Shown piece after piece: positions 3,922 to 30,788 of a DNA stretch of 64,000 nucleotides. Under the pieces are notes generated by a model. That model did no database searches, was not told where the DNA came from, and saw only the letters and a program-made list of their open reading frames with translations. The stretch lies in contig NZ_JXYP01000028.1 in the NCBI RefSeq assembly GCF_000964005.1, positions 62,001-126,000 of the forward strand, in the 5' to 3' direction. The stretch is from Williamsia herbipolensis. GTDB taxonomy: Bacteria; Actinomycetota; Actinomycetes; Mycobacteriales; Mycobacteriaceae. Numbering within the stretch: position 1 is the first letter of the stretch; each line of letters begins with the position of its first letter. A program made the position numbers and the translations under genes.

Positions 3922-4820
3922 CCACACCCGACACCGCGTTCGGGGTCGGGTTCATCGGCCTGGGCAACATGGGCGCCCCCATCGCGCAGCGGTTCGTCGC
4001 GTGGCCCGGCGGGCTCACCGTCTGTGACGCACGCCCCGAGGCGACCGAGAAGGTCGTCGCGGCCGGGGCGAGCGCGGTCGCCACCGCCGCCGAGGTCGCC
4101 GAGCGAGCCCGCGTCATCTCCATCACCGTCCTCGACGACGCCCAGGTGCGGTCAGTCGTCACCGGCCCCGGCGGCATCCTGGAGACCGCGACACCGGGGA
4201 CGGTCGTCGCGGTGCACTCGACGATCGCCCCCGACACCGCCGTCGAGCTCGGCGAGATCTGCGCCGCCCGCGGTGTCGATCTCGTCGACGCACCCGTCTC
4301 CGGTGGCGCCTCCGGAGCCGAGCAGGGGCGGCTGGCGATCATGGTCGGTGGTCCCCGCGCCGCCTACGAGAAGGTCAAGCCGGTGTTCGCACTCGCGTCC
4401 GACATGACCATCCACGCAGGTGATGTCGGTGCGGGTACGCGGATGAAGTTGGCGCGCAACCTGCTCCACTTCATCTCCTTCACCGCGGCCACGGAGGCCA
4501 GTCGGCTCGCCGAGGCCGCGGGTGTCGACATCGTCAAGCTCGGCAAGGTCGTCCGACACACCGATGCGATCACCGGTGGAGCCGGCGCCATCATGTTGCG
4601 TGACACCACCGCACCCATCGCCGACGACGACTTCTGGCATTCGGTCTTCACACACGTCCGCGGTCTCGGCGAGAAGGACGTCGCGCTCGCCCTCGAGCTC
4701 GCCGCCGACCTCGACGTCGACCTCCCCCTGGGGCGCATCGCCCTCGAGCGACTCGGCGACGGTCTCGGCGTCGGTCCCGGCGAGATCGCCGCCTCCCACC
4801 CGAACGGAGTCACCCGATGA
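3918..4820 (+). CDS. NAD-dependent beta-hydroxyacid dehydrogenase family protein
   Basis: A 300-residue member of the 3-hydroxyisobutyrate/tartronate-semialdehyde reductase family. The Rossmann loop GFIGLGNMG is at the N-terminus, the substrate-binding DAPVSGG follows, and the catalytic lysine is K177 in the MKLARN motif. The start was chosen at the ATGA overlap with the SDR stop, which puts the Rossmann loop at residue 10 or so as in the family. A second, distinct homologue (mmsB) sits in the valine operon at 35823, so this one probably acts on another substrate. Positional counterpart of Rv0770. Confidence 0.9.
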   Translation: MTTPDTAFGVGFIGLGNMGAPIAQRFVAWPGGLTVCDARPEATEKVVAAGASAVATAAEVAERARVISITVLDDAQVRSVVTGPGGILETATPGTVVAVHSTIAPDTAVELGEICAARGVDLVDAPVSGGASGAEQGRLAIMVGGPRAAYEKVKPVFALASDMTIHAGDVGAGTRMKLARNLLHFISFTAATEASRLAEAAGVDIVKLGKVVRHTDAITGGAGAIMLRDTTAPIADDDFWHSVFTHVRGLGEKDVALALELAADLDVDLPLGRIALERLGDGLGVGPGEIAASHPNGVTR

Positions 4821-5185
4821 CCGAGATGAGCGAACAACGCCGCAAGGGCCTGGCCAAGATGGCGGAGGTGTACGGCTTCGATCTGTCCGACGGGCCCGGG
4901 GACTACTTCGCCCACACCGCCGACCACCTGTTCGGCGAGGTGTGGACGCGCGAGGGACTCACCGTCCGCGACCGGCGTCTGCTGCTGCTCGGCGCACTCG
5001 CCGCGTCGGGCCTCGACGACGTCGCCGAGATCCAGGCCGGGGCCGCGTTGGGCAACGGCGAACTCGAGCCCGATCAACTGCGCGAGATCGCCCTGTTCCT
5101 CTGCTACTACATCGGATGGCCGTTGGGCACGAAGCTCAACTTCACCTTCGGCAGGGTCATCGACAACTTCGAGAAGAATCGTTGA
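4817..5185 (+). CDS. Carboxymuconolactone decarboxylase-like protein
   Basis: A 122-residue all-helical protein of the carboxymuconolactone decarboxylase fold, with the conserved segment around LTVRDRRLLLLGALAASG. It lacks the CxxC pair of AhpD-type peroxidases; the only cysteine visible is in LCYYIGWP, so a redox role is unlikely. It begins in an ATGA overlap with the previous gene and its stop overlaps the TTG start of the next. Counterpart in position of M. tuberculosis Rv0771. The reaction is unknown. Confidence 0.88.
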   Translation: MTEMSEQRRKGLAKMAEVYGFDLSDGPGDYFAHTADHLFGEVWTREGLTVRDRRLLLLGALAASGLDDVAEIQAGAALGNGELEPDQLREIALFLCYYIGWPLGTKLNFTFGRVIDNFEKNR

Positions 5186-5805
5186 GGCAGTTCGTCTTCG
5201 AGGACATCACCGCCGACGAGGTCGCCCGGCGCGCAGAGCTGTACACGCCGCTCACGAACTCGGTGCGTGAGCTGGTCGACGCCACCATCCGCACCGAGGT
5301 CGATCCCGACACCATCGGTGCGGCGCGGGAGCTGATCGATCGGGCCACCGCTCTGCTCCGTGCACAGCAGTGCGACGGTCCGCACGGGGTGCGCTACACC
5401 GCCGACGGGACCGGGATGCCCTGGGGCAACCCGGCGATCGGGATCCGCAACGCCATGGCGCCCCCGATGGTGGTGAACCGCGACGGCGATCACCGGCGCG
5501 TCGCCGACGTCGTCCTGGGCGCGGCGTACGAGGGACCGCCCGGGCTCGTGCACGGCGGGATCTGCGCCCTGCTGCTCGACCACATCCTGGGCGAGGCCGC
5601 GAGCGCCATGACCGGCACCCTGACACTGCGGTTCGAGCGGGCGACCCCGCTGGGGCCGGTTCATCTCGAAGCGGCGGTCACCGGGACGGACGGCCGCAAG
5701 AAGACCGTTCACGGTTCGCTGTCGGACGCCGACGGCATCACCGTCACCGCCGAGGGCATCTTCATCATGCCCCGGACATTCGACGACCCGGAAGGATCTC
5801 CATGA
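5182..5805 (+). CDS. Hotdog-fold (PaaI-type) thioesterase family protein
   Basis: A 207-residue protein whose C-terminal half carries the hotdog signature (YEGPPGLVHGGICALLLDH, then LTLRFERATPLGPV). The reading frame is open well upstream, so the start is inferred: a TTG at 5182 forms a TTGA overlap with the preceding stop, as elsewhere in this operon. Its own stop overlaps the ATG of the P450. It probably hydrolyses an acyl-CoA made in the pathway. The N-terminal 90 residues are helical and without recognised motif. Confidence 0.82.
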   Translation: MRQFVFEDITADEVARRAELYTPLTNSVRELVDATIRTEVDPDTIGAARELIDRATALLRAQQCDGPHGVRYTADGTGMPWGNPAIGIRNAMAPPMVVNRDGDHRRVADVVLGAAYEGPPGLVHGGICALLLDHILGEAASAMTGTLTLRFERATPLGPVHLEAAVTGTDGRKKTVHGSLSDADGITVTAEGIFIMPRTFDDPEGSP

Positions 5806-7049
5806 CCACCGATCTGCCCACCCGCTGTCCGTTCGGGGCCGGCTGGGACCTCACCGATCCCGCCCTGCTCGAGAACGGCATGCCCCATGCCGAATTCGCG
5901 CAGATGCGGCAGACGCGACGCATCTTCTGGATCGACCAGGATCCCGAGGTCGGGCCGTTCCGGGACAGCGGGTACTGGGTCGTCACCCGACACGCCGACA
6001 TCCGCGCCATCTCGAAGAACTCGGTCGACTTCTCCAGCAACACCCAGGGTGCGGTCATGCGGCTGCCGGACATGATGACGCCCGAACTGCTCGAGTACAC
6101 CAAGGCGATGTTGATCAACCACGATCCGCCGGAGCACACACGTCTGCGCAAGGTGGTGTCGCGGCTGTTCACCCCGCGCGCGGTCAACGCCCTGCACGAG
6201 GTGCTCGACGCCCGCGCCCGCGAGATCGTCTCCGCCGCGATCGCCGGTGGCACCGGCAATTTCGTGGACGATGTCGCCGTGGACCTCCCGCTCTCGGCCA
6301 TCGCCGATCTCATCGGGGTACCCGCCGAGGACCGGGAGAAGTTGTTCACCTGGACCAACGCCGTGATGAACACCGACGACCCCGACTACGGCGACATGGA
6401 CGCCGCCGAGGCCAACGCGCAGCTACTGGGCTACGCCTACGCGATGGCCGAGGACCGCCGGAAGAACCCGGCCGAGGACATCATCACCACGCTGGTCAAC
6501 GCCGACGTCGACGGGGAGGCACTCGACGAGGCCGAGTTCGGCTTCTTCGTCATCCTCATCGCGGTGGCGGGCAACGAGACCACCCGCAACGCGATCACCC
6601 ACGGCATGAACGCGTTCCTCGACCACCCCGAGCAGTGGGAACTGTTCAAGCGCGAGCGCCCCGCGACCGCCGCCGACGAGGTCATCCGCTGGGCCACACC
6701 GGTGCACTGCTTCCAACGCACCGCCATCAACGATGTGACGCTCGGCGACGTCACCGTCCGCGCCGGCGAACGGGTCGGGATGTTCTACAGCTCGGCGAAT
6801 TTCGACCCCGAGGTCTTCGACGACCCGCGAACGTTCGACATCACCCGGAATCCCAATCCGCACCTGGCGTTCGGGGGCAGCGGCGCGCACTACTGCGTGG
6901 GCGCGAACCTGGCCCGGATGGAGGTCGACATCATGTTCAACGCCATCGCCGACCTCGCGCCCGACATCACCAAACTGGCCGACCCCACACGACTGCGTTC
7001 CGGGTGGATCAACGGTGTGAAGGCACTTCCGGTCGACTACCGCGGTTGA
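5802..7049 (+). CDS. Cytochrome P450 (CYP124/125/126/142-like)
   Basis: A complete 415-residue P450. AGNETT of the I helix is at residues 256-261, the ExxR motif is in ADEVIRW, and the haem ligand is C365 in FGGSGAHYCVGANLARME. That haem loop is of the type in actinobacterial steroid/fatty-acid CYP124, 125, 126 and 142; I cannot pick one. It is the last gene of the aldA operon (ATGA overlap at 5802). Its final 13 bp overlap the end of the convergent DUF2277 gene. Substrate unknown. With the dehydrogenases upstream it could start the oxidation series. Confidence 0.92.
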   Translation: MTTDLPTRCPFGAGWDLTDPALLENGMPHAEFAQMRQTRRIFWIDQDPEVGPFRDSGYWVVTRHADIRAISKNSVDFSSNTQGAVMRLPDMMTPELLEYTKAMLINHDPPEHTRLRKVVSRLFTPRAVNALHEVLDARAREIVSAAIAGGTGNFVDDVAVDLPLSAIADLIGVPAEDREKLFTWTNAVMNTDDPDYGDMDAAEANAQLLGYAYAMAEDRRKNPAEDIITTLVNADVDGEALDEAEFGFFVILIAVAGNETTRNAITHGMNAFLDHPEQWELFKRERPATAADEVIRWATPVHCFQRTAINDVTLGDVTVRAGERVGMFYSSANFDPEVFDDPRTFDITRNPNPHLAFGGSGAHYCVGANLARMEVDIMFNAIADLAPDITKLADPTRLRSGWINGVKALPVDYRG

Positions 7050-25790: not shown

Positions 25791-26357
25791 TCACTGCGTG
25801 CGTGTGTGGCGGATGGCACGGACGAAGGCGCCGGGGTCGGCGGCCGTCACGTCGAGGCGGTCGACACCCACGCCTGCGATCTCGAGGCTCCGTAGGTGCA
25901 GGCGCACCGTCGCGTCGCCGTGGCGCAGGGTCGCGGTCCGCGCGTCCTCGTCGACCTCGACGCCGGAGAACCCGGAGCCGTCGACACGGCACACCTCGAC
26001 GGTCTCGATCGCCGACACCGGTATGTCGAGACCGGAGAAGACACTGTTGCGCAGCCTGATCCGTCCGTCACCGATCTCGTGGGGTCTGGTGCGCAACGAG
26101 GCGACGATGCCGAGCAACCAGCACAGTGCATACACGTGGATGGCCGCGGCGACGATGGTCGCTGTCACCGAGTCGGTGAACAGTCCGATCAGGAAGTCGA
26201 TGACGACACCCTCCACGATCGCCAGGGCGGCGACGGCGTAGAGAAGCGGCCGCACCTGACGTCCGTATCCGAACGTCCGCACACCGTCAGGCCGATCCGC
26301 GCGCGCCCAACCGAACAGCGACCGCCACATCCGGCCCTCGGCGCGGAGAACGGTCAC
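25791..26357 (-). CDS. Small membrane protein with two TM segments
   Basis: A protein of about 188 residues: a short basic N-terminus, two hydrophobic helices (LLYAVAALAIVEGVVIDFLI and TIVAAAIHVYALCWLLGIVA) and a beta-rich cytoplasmic C-terminal domain. The GTG start at 26357 overlaps the stop of the amino-acid permease gene (GTGA). No family recognised with confidence; the PH-like C-terminal part is a guess. Co-transcription with the permease and HTH-citrate synthase gene is likely. Confidence 0.72.
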   Translation of the reverse strand: MTVLRAEGRMWRSLFGWARADRPDGVRTFGYGRQVRPLLYAVAALAIVEGVVIDFLIGLFTDSVTATIVAAAIHVYALCWLLGIVASLRTRPHEIGDGRIRLRNSVFSGLDIPVSAIETVEVCRVDGSGFSGVEVDEDARTATLRHGDATVRLHLRSLEIAGVGVDRLDVTAADPGAFVRAIRHTRTQ

Positions 26358-27741
26358 GCCGCGGTGCGTGCGCCTCGGCGGGTGGAGATCACATAGCCCA
26401 CGGTGACCCCGGCGAACCAGATCGCGCCGACGACGACCGCGATACGGCCCGAGTCGCTGAAGAACAGCAGCACGACCACCATGGCGAAGAACGCCAGCGC
26501 GATGACGGTGCTGACGGGCGCCCAGGGCAGGCGGTAGTCCGACGCCTCGACCGTTCCCGCCGCCACCCGTGAGCGATAGACCATGTGGCTGATCAGGATC
26601 GAGCTCCACACGAAGATGATGCCGACGGTGGAGACCGACGTGATGTAGGCGAACGCGCGATCGGGGCTGATGACGTTCACGATCACGCCGATCACCATCA
26701 CACCGGCCGACAGGACGATGCCGCCGATCGGTACCTGGCGGCTCGACATCACCGACAGCTTCTCCGGCGCCTCACCCCGTTGCGACAGGCTGCGCAGCAT
26801 GCGTCCGGTCGAGTAGATGCCGGAGTTGCACGACGACAGGGCAGCGGTCAGCAGGATGAAGTTGACGATGCCCGCGGCGCCGGGGATGCCGATGTAGCCG
26901 AACACCTCGACGAACGGGCTGTTGCCGTCGGAGAACTCGCGCCATCCGCGCACCGACAAGATGACCACGAGCGCACCGACGTAGAACAGGCCGATGCGGA
27001 ACGGCAGCGTGTTGATCGCCTTGCGCAGGGTGACCTTCGGGTTGGCGGCCTCGCCCGCGGTGACGCCGACGAGTTCGACTCCCACGTAGGCGAACACGAC
27101 GATCTGCAGGCTCAGGAGCGCCGACCCGAACCCGGTCGCGAAGAAGCCGCCGTCGTTGTAGAGATTGGTCAGTGAGGGTCCCGTCTCGGGGCCGATCCCC
27201 GCGATGGGGAGCAGCACCAGCGTGCCGATGCCGATCATCGCGATGATGGCGGCGACCTTGATCATGGAGAACCAGAACTCGGCCTCGCCGAACACCTTGA
27301 CCGAGATGAGGTTCGCCGCGAACAGCGCGATGAGCACGACGAGAGCGGTCACCCACACCGGGATCGACGGGAACCAGTAGTTGACGTACTTGCCCGCGAC
27401 GGTGATCTCGGCCATGCAGGTGGTGGTCCACACCGCCCAGTAGGTCCACCCGTTGGTGAAACCCAGATACCGGCCGAGGAATTCGTGGGCGTATTCCGAG
27501 ATGGACCCGGCGACCGGTCGGTAGATGAGGAGCTCACCGAGGCGCGCATGACGACGAAGATCGCGAGTCCGGCCACGAGGTAGGCCAGGATGAGCGCCGG
27601 GCCGGCGTCCTCGATCGCGCCGCCGGCGCCGTAGAACAGGCCCGTCCCGATGGCGCCACCGAGGGCGATCATCTGCACGGTGCGGGCCGAGAGGCCGCGC
27701 TGGTAGCCGTCGTCGATCTCGTCGACCGTGTTCGAGGTCAT
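26354..27741 (-). pseudogene. AAT-family amino acid permease, frameshifted
   Basis: An amino-acid/polyamine permease of the AnsP/CycA/GabP type (about 460 residues if intact). The first 67 residues (GLSARTVQMIALGGAIGTGL through FVVMRA) are in one frame. The rest, from LGELLIYRPVAGSISEY on, is in another. Both halves are fully conserved and meet at 27541. One extra C in the coding strand (GCGCC-CTCGGT) would restore FVVMRALGELLIY. It is either a one-base deletion in a G/C run or a sequencing error. It lies 30 bp after the HTH-citrate synthase gene on the same strand. Confidence 0.88.
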
Positions 27742-27771: not shown

Positions 27772-29001
27772 TCACGTCGCGGGTCGGACGCCCGTGTAGA
27801 CACCTTCGGGCCGGAATCGCAGCCGCGGTGCGCGGTACTCCTCGATGGCGTGGGCGACCCAGCCCGCGATACGAGCGATGGCGAAGATCGTCTCGGCGGC
27901 GTCGGGCACCATGCGGTATCGCAGCGTGAACGCGGCCAGCGCGAGATCGGAGTTGACGAAGCCCCGGGGGCGCCCGGTGACGCCCGCGCGCACCGCATCG
28001 ACGGCCGCCACCACGTCGCGGCGACCACCCTCGGCCTCCAGTGCTCGCAGTAGTGCGTCGGCGCGCGGATCGTGCGTGCGATAGACGATGTGTCCGCATC
28101 CGGGGGGCAAGTCGTGACCCCGCAGGTACTCCGCGACCCGATGCTCGGGCCCGTCGGCATCGGCGAGCACCGAGGCGAGGAAGTCGTAGGCCAGGGTGGT
28201 CGCTCCGCCGTGCAGGGGCCCGTCGAACGCACCCAGTCCGGCCGAGATGACCGCGTAGATGCTGCCGCGTGCACTGGCCGCGACACGGGCCGCGACCGTG
28301 CCCGCGGCGAGGTCGTGATCGGCGAGCAGGATCAGCGCGGCGTTGAGCAGCCGGATCCGTGGGGCCGTCGGCGCCATGGGCGACAGCCGACACCACAAGC
28401 GTTGTGCCACCGTCGAACCCCCAGCTGTCTCGGCCACCATCGGCAGGGTGTCCACGACGGCGTCGATGACGCCCCTTGCCTTGTGGGCCACGTCGTCGGC
28501 ACCGATGCGGCCACGGGATCCGTCGGCGGCTCCCAGGAGGTCGACGGTGACCCGGATCCGGTCCAGTCGCCGACCGGCTCCGGGCAGGGTCGGAAGGGTG
28601 ACGGCCTGCGCCGCCGGACGACCGAACCCGGTCGTCGTCGTGCCCCAGAGGAGGTCGACGACCTCGAGGAAGTCCGTGGTGAAGGCGAGTTCGGTGGCGT
28701 CGTGCCCGCGGTAGTAGAGGCGGTCGTCGGCGAGCAGGGTGATCTCGGTGCGGATCCGTTCCACGACCCCGGCCGGGGGCCGTTGCTGGGTGCGGCGGCG
28801 CAGGGCCTCGACCTCGCCGACAGCGAACAGGCTGCCGCGGATGCCCGCGATGCGGACACTCTCGAGCTGCCCGCGACTGACGTACGCGTACACCGACGCA
28901 GGTTTGATCCCCAGCGCGCGGGCCACCTGAGCGGTGGTCAGGTAGTCGCGGCCGTCATGTCGCATGGCCGTGGGCCACCGGTGTGGATGGCGTCGTGCCA
29001 C
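27772..29001 (-). CDS. Citrate synthase-like protein with N-terminal helix-turn-helix
   Basis: A 409-residue fusion. Residues about 12-60 form an excisionase/MerR-like helix-turn-helix (YLTTAQVARALGIKPASVYA, then YVSRGQLESVRI). The rest is a citrate synthase fold with FDGPLHGGA, GHIVYRTHDPRAD and NSDLALAAFT, so the two histidines and one aspartate of the usual triad are apparently kept. GTG at 29001 is preceded by GGAGG at 7 nt. It diverges from a second citrate synthase homologue across a perfect palindrome. Streptomyces carries similar pairs. Dual role as enzyme and DNA-binding regulator is inferred. Confidence 0.85.
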   Translation of the reverse strand: MARRHPHRWPTAMRHDGRDYLTTAQVARALGIKPASVYAYVSRGQLESVRIAGIRGSLFAVGEVEALRRRTQQRPPAGVVERIRTEITLLADDRLYYRGHDATELAFTTDFLEVVDLLWGTTTTGFGRPAAQAVTLPTLPGAGRRLDRIRVTVDLLGAADGSRGRIGADDVAHKARGVIDAVVDTLPMVAETAGGSTVAQRLWCRLSPMAPTAPRIRLLNAALILLADHDLAAGTVAARVAASARGSIYAVISAGLGAFDGPLHGGATTLAYDFLASVLADADGPEHRVAEYLRGHDLPPGCGHIVYRTHDPRADALLRALEAEGGRRDVVAAVDAVRAGVTGRPRGFVNSDLALAAFTLRYRMVPDAAETIFAIARIAGWVAHAIEEYRAPRLRFRPEGVYTGVRPAT

Positions 29002-29008
29002 GGTCGGA

Positions 29009-29013
29009 CCTCC
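29009..29013 (-). promoter_or_regulatory. Ribosome binding site fixing the HTH-citrate synthase start
   Basis: GGAGG on the minus strand lies 7 nt before the GTG at 29001. The frame is open further upstream to an ATG at 29049, but that start would place the palindrome at 29021-29039 inside the coding region and has no ribosome site, so GTG is preferred. Confidence 0.7.
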
Positions 29014-29020
29014 TTCGTCG

Positions 29021-29039
29021 ATGTTGATCCGATCAACAT
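29021..29039. promoter_or_regulatory. Perfect 9-1-9 palindrome between two citrate synthase genes
   Basis: ATGTTGATC-C-GATCAACAT, with no mismatch in either arm, lies in the 107-bp gap between the divergent starts at 29001 and 29109. It is much richer in A/T than its surroundings. It is a likely operator controlling both genes; the obvious candidate binder is the helix-turn-helix domain encoded 20 bp away. Confidence 0.75.
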
Positions 29040-29108
29040 TGACCGGCATGCCTCGTGCGTCGAATGTAGGGCCAGAATGCCTGAGCAGTCGAGGAGAAAC
29101 GAGAGATC

Positions 29109-30254
29109 ATGAGCGTCATCGTGGCCGAACCGGGTCTGTCCAATGTGTCGGTGGCACACACCGAGATCGGGGATGTGCGCGGCGAGGAGGGCTTCTACCA
29201 GTACCGGCAGTACAACGCCGTCTCCCTCGCGCGGTACCGCACGTTCGAGGAGGTGTGGTTCCTGTTCGTCCACGGTCGCCTCCCTGAGGCCTACGAGCTC
29301 GACCGTTTCGTGAACGAGGTGCGGTCCCTGCGCACGATCGGCGACGACCTGATGTCGGTGATCCGAGTGGTCGCCGCCACCGGTGGCGGTCGTCGGCCGC
29401 TGATCGGCCTGCGTACCGTGCTGTCGTCGCTCGCCGAGCTCGAGGGGATGGCACCGCTGTGGGACGCCGATCCGGACACGCGCGTCCGGCATGCCCTGCG
29501 GGTCTGCGCGGTGACACCGACCATTTTGGCTGCCCTGCACCGCATCTCGAACGGCGACGAACCGGTGCCGGCCCGCGACGATCTCGACACCGCCGCCCAC
29601 TGGCTGCACACGATCACCGGCGAGGTGCCCACACCCGAACACGCCCGGGCCGTCGAGCAGTACCTGATCGCGACCATCGACCACGGTTTCAACGCGTCGA
29701 CCTTCACCGCCCGCGTGATCGCCTCGACCGGTGCAGATCTGGTGTCCGCTGTCTGCGGCGCCGTTGGCGCGTTCTCCGGGCCGCTGCACGGCGGCGCACC
29801 CGACCGCGCACTCGACTCCCTCGACGAGATCGCGCTGACCGGTGGCGCCGAGGCGGCCACCGAATGGGCCCGTGGGCAGATGGCGGCGGGTGCACGGATC
29901 ATGGGTTTCGGTCATGCGGTGTACCGCACCGTCGATCCCCGTTCGGAGTTGCTGCGGGACATCGCGATCGGCCTCGGCGGCGACACGGTCGACCTGGCCG
30001 TCGAGGTGGAGCGCGCGGTGGTGTCGGAGTTGGCCCGATCGCATCCCGACCGTCCGCTGTACGCCAACGTCGAGTTCTACGCGGGCGTGGTGATGGACCG
30101 CTGCGGGATACCGCGGACCATGTTCACACCGACCTTCACCATGAGCCGGGTGGTCGGTTGGTGCGCCAACATCCTCGAGCAGGCCCAGAGCCGCAAGATC
30201 ATCCGACCCCGCGCGACGTACGTGGGACCGGAGGTGGTGGAGCTCGTGAGCTGA
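29109..30254 (+). CDS. Citrate/2-methylcitrate synthase homologue
   Basis: A 381-residue citrate synthase family member that would join an acyl-CoA to oxaloacetate. FSGPLHGGAPDRAL and MGFGHAVYRTVDPRS contain the two catalytic histidines. The block usually NVDFYSG, whose aspartate is the catalytic base, reads NVEFYAG, a Glu in place of Asp. A GAGGAG ribosome site precedes the ATG. It diverges from the HTH-fused homologue. Because of the substitution and partnership I regard it as a paralogue and not the housekeeping gltA. Confidence 0.88.
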   Translation: MSVIVAEPGLSNVSVAHTEIGDVRGEEGFYQYRQYNAVSLARYRTFEEVWFLFVHGRLPEAYELDRFVNEVRSLRTIGDDLMSVIRVVAATGGGRRPLIGLRTVLSSLAELEGMAPLWDADPDTRVRHALRVCAVTPTILAALHRISNGDEPVPARDDLDTAAHWLHTITGEVPTPEHARAVEQYLIATIDHGFNASTFTARVIASTGADLVSAVCGAVGAFSGPLHGGAPDRALDSLDEIALTGGAEAATEWARGQMAAGARIMGFGHAVYRTVDPRSELLRDIAIGLGGDTVDLAVEVERAVVSELARSHPDRPLYANVEFYAGVVMDRCGIPRTMFTPTFTMSRVVGWCANILEQAQSRKIIRPRATYVGPEVVELVS

Positions 30255-30276: not shown

Positions 30277-30730
30277 ATGACGTTGCCACCGCGGGTGAGC
30301 GCGATCGTGTTCGACTGCGATGGTCTGCTTCTCGACACCGAGAGCTGCTGGTCACGTGCCGAGGCAGCCTTGTTCGCCGAGCACGGCCACGAATTCGGGC
30401 CGGCCGAGAAGGACATGCTCATCGGACGATCGGTCCCCGCCGCACCTCGACAGCTACGTCGAGGTCTCGATGACCGCCGACGACGTCGCCCACGCCAAAC
30501 CTCATCCCGAGCCCTACCTTGTGGCGTTCGAGCGGCTCGGCGCTCGACCGTCGGACGGTGTGGCCCTCGAGGATTCGTCGACGGGTGTGGTTGCGGCGCA
30601 GACGGCGGGGGCCTTCGTGATCGCGGTGCCCTCACAGGCGGGGAAGGCACTGTCCGCGGACTTCGTCACCCACGCGCTGACCGACCCGGAGATCGTGGCG
30701 TGGGGAAGGACTGTGCGGGAACTCGAATGA
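30277..30730 (+). pseudogene. HAD-superfamily phosphatase, internally deleted and frameshifted
   Basis: A beta-phosphoglucomutase-like HAD hydrolase remnant. The start (IVFDCDGLLLDTE, motif I with both aspartates, to LIGRSVPAA) is in one frame; the end (HAKPHPEPYL with the motif III lysine, then VALEDSSTGV, motif IV) is in a second. The junction is near 30437. The cap domain and motif II, some 70-90 residues, are missing, so this cannot be a functional enzyme. A hairpin at 30732-30767 follows. Confidence 0.85.
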
Positions 30731-30731
30731 G

Positions 30732-30767
30732 GTGGAAGTGGATCGGCGGCGTGACGCCTCCTTCCAC
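30732..30767 (+). terminator. Hairpin after the HAD remnant
   Basis: GTGGAAG at 30732-30738 pairs with CTTCCAC at 30761-30767, enclosing an inner GGCGT-G-ACGCC stem. It begins right after the HAD stop codon and lies just before the helR promoter, so it would keep read-through out of helR. Confidence 0.6.
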
Positions 30768-30788
30768 TCTCAAGATATAGCGCAGTGG

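Follow-up and report, generated by a model that had tools for sequence, protein, structure and literature searches.

One-component regulators with enzyme-derived sensors include MocR/PdxR (GntR-type helix-turn-helix (HTH) plus aminotransferase), ROK/NagC (HTH plus sugar kinase) and BirA. In these proteins, an N-terminal HTH is joined to a complete metabolic-enzyme fold, and the regulator often controls a neighbouring metabolic gene. The same architecture is found in a protein of Williamsia herbipolensis encoded in the 64,000-nucleotide stretch of DNA analysed here (the window). Unlike in the systems above, a citrate synthase (CS) domain would serve as sensor, the HTH is of the excisionase/MerR-like HTH_17 type, and the protein appears to have an operator of its own. 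We refer to it as HTH-CS. To our knowledge, a citrate synthase sensor combined with HTH_17 and its own operator has not been described, and we found no paper on an HTH-citrate synthase regulator in the open-access PMC literature.

A dedicated regulator next to a minor citrate synthase is known from Bacillus subtilis, where the gene for the LysR regulator CitR is divergent from citA. The present locus resembles this arrangement in pairing a candidate regulator with a divergent CitA-type CS that has Glu at the position of the catalytic Asp, as in B. subtilis CitA (2C6X); unlike the LysR-type CitR, HTH-CS is itself a citrate synthase homologue. Mycobacterium tuberculosis CitA (8GM9, 6WGY group) is a relative of the partner CS and has the same NVEF motif, again with Glu. 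Among 61 relatives of the window's genome, those with only CitA-type genes of the M. tuberculosis CitA lineage yielded neither an HTH-CS partner nor the operator. In Streptomyces coelicolor, sco5831 (citA3) and sco5832 (citA4) have been described as two putative citrate synthases sharing an intergenic region with an MtrA site; MtrA binds this region in vitro, and an mtrA mutant de-represses both genes, with expression rising late (PMC12323332). We infer that citA3/citA4 is very probably an HTH-CS/CS locus. In contrast to the present case, the regulator studied there is MtrA, and the passages considered here mention neither an HTH domain in either protein nor a palindrome. Since MtrA binds there and its mutant de-represses both genes, another regulator acts at citA3/citA4, which counts against the account given below.

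The HTH-CS gene and its divergent partner

The initial annotation had read this locus as a citrate synthase fused to an N-terminal HTH and separated from a second, divergent citrate synthase by a perfect 9-1-9 palindrome, and all three components were recovered (Table 1). Profile searches placed both domains of HTH-CS above their cut-offs, with 154.5 bits against 27 for Citrate_synt (PF00285; E = 5e-45, residues 83-398) and 29.4 bits against 27 for HTH_17 (PF12728; residues 20-52). The partner is a complete citrate synthase (E 1e-104) that shares about 31% identity with HTH-CS across 204 aligned residues; its closest PDB relative is B. subtilis CitA, followed by 2IBP and M. tuberculosis CitA. 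An AlphaFold2 model of HTH-CS of modest confidence (pLDDT 80.6) shows an HTH, a wing and a helix at residues 23-72 and an all-helical CS body, and methylcitrate and citrate synthases appear as its best PDB neighbours. We rejected assignment to the MerR family (MerR HTH profile, 16.5 bits against a cut-off of 28.2) and to the BldC family (NCBIfam HTH_BldC, 13.8 against 77 bits).

Table 1 Features of the HTH-CS/CS locus (coordinates refer to the window).
Feature	Coordinates	Strand	Remarks
HTH-citrate synthase fusion (HTH-CS), P0001, 409 aa	27772-29001	-	HTH_17 about 20-72, CS domain about 83-409
Ribosome-binding site GAAGGAGGTCC of HTH-CS	29008-29018	-	Supports GTG start at 29001
Conserved putative operator GTCAATGTTGATCGGATCAACAT	29021-29043	-	Three TCAA/TTGA half-sites; includes perfect palindrome 29021-29039
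Predicted HTH-CS promoter TTCGAC-N17-CAATGT	29037-29065	-	-10 box within operator; prediction
Predicted CS promoter TTGACC-N17-GAATGT	29039-29067	+	-35 box is outer operator half-site; prediction
CitA-like citrate synthase, P0002, 381 aa, divergent from HTH-CS	29109-30254	+	Glu322 replaces catalytic Asp

The longest reading frame of HTH-CS opens at ATG 29049 and would take in the palindrome. Inspection of the sequence showed that the GTG at 29001 sits behind AAGGAGGT, with GAAGGAGGTCC at proper spacing, and because of this preceding ribosome-binding site the GTG rather than the ATG is the likely start.

In an alignment of 128 HTH-CS proteins, the catalytic His/His/Asp positions are retained almost throughout (H264 in 126/128, H304 and D352 in 128/128), as are the oxaloacetate Arg positions (R313 and R377 in 128/128, R397 in 127/128); for the roles of these pocket residues we rely on established citrate synthase enzymology. 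A catalytically dead CS domain serving as sensor was rejected, the active-site residues being intact, and because they are intact, sensing of acyl-CoA or oxaloacetate is plausible. Within the HTH, residues Y38, S42 and R43 are invariant in all 128 proteins. In all 105 legible partner CS sequences, drawn from two phyla, Glu stands where the catalytic Asp would be, a replacement also present in the B. subtilis and M. tuberculosis CitA proteins. In a tree built with a quick method, the HTH-CS proteins all form a single clade (SH-aLRT 100) that excludes the partner CSs and other citrate synthases, and the branching of HTH-CS and of partner CS broadly matches.

The suggestion that the downstream permease is under the same control found no general support. 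An amino-acid permease-like gene (26354-27741, -) lies next to HTH-CS only in the congeners G001, G004 and G007, and in the window it is frameshifted near 27540 relative to G001 and G004, where the open frame spans 467 aa; the permease was therefore rejected as part of a conserved unit. On the other side of the locus, downstream of CS, a HAD-like hydrolase gene (30277-30780, +) is apparently frameshifted with its middle part missing; G001 and G007 have a matching N-terminus in the corresponding position.

A three-half-site element between the two genes

The palindrome ATGTTGATCCGATCAACAT reads ATGTTGATC-C-GATCAACAT and lies 19 bp upstream from the start of HTH-CS (taken as GTG 29001) and 69 bp from that of CS. 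Its symmetry alone proves little, because the window (69% GC) contains five perfect 9-1-9 palindromes where composition predicts 0.8. This particular sequence has no second place in the window at up to three mismatches, and the rest of the 4.7-Mb genome holds one single three-mismatch place. A conserved GTCAA abuts the palindrome on the CS side, so that the element is larger than the palindrome and comprises the three half-sites GTCAAYRTTGATYNRATCAAYRT.

From a scan of a species-level genome collection we assembled 80 named actinobacterial loci (Gordonia, Streptomyces, Lentzea, Kribbella, Actinoplanes, Amycolatopsis and others), 78 of which have CS immediately divergent from HTH-CS. When 9-17 kb of each locus was scored, the best motif copy lay upstream of HTH-CS in one fixed orientation in 79 of 80, a count that does not describe a random sample, most loci having been picked by similarity to HTH-CS; the next-best sites within the loci score far lower. 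Because the HTH-CS proteins of these loci are only 41-59% identical to that of the window, such conservation of the site amounts to strong footprinting. The site of locus L084 is 507 bp upstream of HTH-CS, yet between both genes, an insertion at L076 makes the intergenic copy second best, and L090 and L110, without a divergent CS, have weaker motifs. Among nine close relatives, only two blocks of the otherwise diverged intergenic DNA, TTCGRC and GTCAAYGTTGATCNRATCAAYRT, are conserved. The initial annotation had proposed a search for the palindrome before other actinobacterial HTH-CS genes and had named its non-conservation as counter-evidence; we found the three-half-site element kept.

Twenty further loci from distant actinobacterial families have CS upstream in 16 cases, and elements related to the operator, for example GTCAACGTTGATAATATAATCAATGT and AGTCAATATTGATCTAATTATCAATAT, are present in most of the loci inspected. 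The gap between the second and third half-sites is 5 nt in most actinomycetes and 7-9 nt elsewhere, so the binding geometry of the operator is not fixed, a point against the repressor account given below. Owing to this variable position of the third half-site, plain palindrome scoring did not reach significance in several distant loci; there, the half-site pattern revealed the element. In the Streptomyces loci L050-L115, further conserved half-sites (GTCAA and ATCAA) border the CS promoter, 10-33 bp past the operator on the CS side, and are perhaps additional binding sites.

The outer half-site GTCAA reads TTGAC towards CS, and in this direction TTGAC is followed by 17-18 bp and nAnnnT. In the window's group the pattern is TTGACN-N17-GAAnnT towards CS and TTCGRC-N17-CAAYGT the opposite way, while Streptomyces usually have TTGACA and, after 18 bp, GACAGT. 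The two predicted promoters overlap, with the result that the operator would cover the CS -35 box and, in the window's genus, the HTH-CS -10 box; this overlap predicts repression of CS together with autoregulation. Placement as in MerR-type operators, inside an over-long spacer of 19-20 bp, was rejected: the operator overlaps a -35 or -10 box, and the predicted spacers measure 17-18 bp.

Distribution of the element and of HTH-CS

Among the 61 relatives, 13 genomes contain the motif (up to two mismatches), and each of them also encodes HTH-CS; a reversed-pattern control gave no match in the same set. With the 16 HTH-CS carriers defined as the clear matches plus G053 and the diverged G036, this corresponds to 13/16 genomes with HTH-CS against 0/45 without it (Fisher p about 9e-11). 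G036 carries diverged copies of both gene and site, and in G008 the site and CS lie about 10 kb away from HTH-CS. Orthologs of the partner CS (at least 50% identity) were found in 14 of the 61 genomes, with HTH-CS near in every case. Because the site is absent apart from HTH-CS loci, it is not the site of a general regulator.

A plasmid collection added HTH-CS carriers from Agrobacterium, Ensifer, Chelatococcus, Niveispirillum, Comamonas, Burkholderia, Paraburkholderia and Caballeronia. The element, here GTCAATnTTGAT-N-ATCAAYR, is present in all 13 of the loci examined from this collection, which are mostly proteobacterial, and eight of the 13 have no adjacent CS; the divergent CS is kept in Agrobacterium pTi and Chelatococcus. 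In three comamonads, HTH-CS is divergent from an operon encoding a 2-hydroxyacid dehydrogenase, a fumarylacetoacetate hydrolase, an SDR and a tripartite transporter, with the site before the operon in Comamonas. The Burkholderia site stands at the head of an SDR-MFS-VOC-HTH-CS operon, whose last gene is HTH-CS. The site thus follows the regulator, since it is present with HTH-CS even where there is no second CS and the neighbour is a catabolic operon. Judged from gene order, the position of HTH-CS in catabolic clusters looks like that of a regulator rather than of a TCA cycle enzyme. In Actinoplanes, the partner CS stems from another CS lineage and the site is retained.

In a few Streptomyces, HTH-CS is accompanied by neither a CS nor a good operator, which counts against the account given below. 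Operators are lost or degraded at L139 and L141 (Streptomyces G083 and G251), L090 and L110, where HTH-CS has no neighbouring CS, which suggests decay of the system once its target was lost. A wide regulon was mostly rejected, with one site per genome and Streptomyces sp. WM6386 as the single exception. This strain has a second strong operator copy (L242, 5830-5872) that overlaps the start of a gene (ORF 4527-5837, -) resembling, by eye, a CaiB/BaiF-type CoA transferase, a possible extra target.

A proposed repressor and its alternatives

Taken from the initial annotation, the idea of an autoregulator acting on divergent promoters is strongly supported by these comparisons, the site being conserved across phyla and tracking the HTH-CS gene. 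We consider it likely that HTH-CS is a one-component regulator with a CS sensor domain that binds the intergenic operator, represses CS and its own gene, and is released by ligand. As the conservation suggests, HTH-CS would bind GTCAAYRTTGATYNRATCAAYRT as a dimer or higher oligomer; a dimer would carry two HTHs and so offer a natural switch. On the predicted layout, the bound protein would cover the CS -35 box and, in the window's genus, its own -10 box, repressing both genes. The CS domain may bind a 2-oxo-dicarboxylate (oxaloacetate or a relative) and/or acyl-CoA or citrate, as its intact residues and knowledge of the family indicate. The CS fold closes on oxaloacetate, and this open-to-closed movement would alter the spacing of the paired HTHs and release the DNA, so that the auxiliary citrate synthase would be made when its substrate accumulates. 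A more tentative version, which we regard as possible and on balance doubtful, has HTH-CS act both as an active (or half-active) citrate synthase and as a repressor, its catalytic state (oxaloacetate-closed, citryl-CoA- or citrate-bound) gating DNA binding. If this is true, HTH-CS reads flux and not just concentration, and sets the expression of the Glu-variant second citrate synthase.

The sign of the regulation could be reversed, with HTH-CS binding the operator and activating CS. The operator lies upstream of and touches the -35 box, a position also used by class II activators, and a divergent layout with one site is common for LysR-type activators such as CitR of B. subtilis; but occlusion is favoured by the CS -35 box, which belongs to the operator itself and comes near the consensus (in most loci it reads TTGACA), and in the window's genus the operator also covers the -10 box of the HTH-CS promoter. 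We consider activation unlikely. A distinctly unlikely reading makes the partner CS the true sensor, which would switch the DNA-binding HTH-CS through hetero-oligomers in a trigger-enzyme arrangement. It would fit the strong co-inheritance (every relative with a partner-CS ortholog has HTH-CS nearby), the completion of CS active sites by a neighbouring subunit, and the fixation across phyla of D in HTH-CS and E in the partner; however, HTH-CS and the operator occur without adjacent CS in loci of Comamonas, Burkholderia, Paraburkholderia, Caballeronia and Nonomuraea, and the partner has been swapped in Actinoplanes.

A role of HTH-CS as a plain citrate or methylcitrate synthase with a vestigial or anchoring HTH, the palindrome being read by another factor, agrees with its annotation as citrate synthase and with the retention of all catalytic residues. 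We regard this as highly improbable, however, given that the HTH residues belong to the best-conserved positions of the protein and that genomes lacking HTH-CS also lack the motif. The five perfect palindromes of the window could speak for a transcription terminator or chance repeat; the position between two divergent start codons and the lack of a T-run argue against this reading, and conservation across phyla as a three-half-site element refutes it. With a site that is shared by actinobacteria and proteobacteria, the sequence comparisons point to an undescribed family of metabolite-sensing switches. The operator is defined sharply enough for target prediction from sequence, and a natural sensor of oxaloacetate or acyl-CoA would be useful as a biosensor. 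The proposal would account for a protein that in very many bacteria has no annotation beyond 'citrate synthase family protein' and, if true, would place citrate synthase, through which carbon enters the TCA cycle, among the few metabolic enzymes turned transcription factors.
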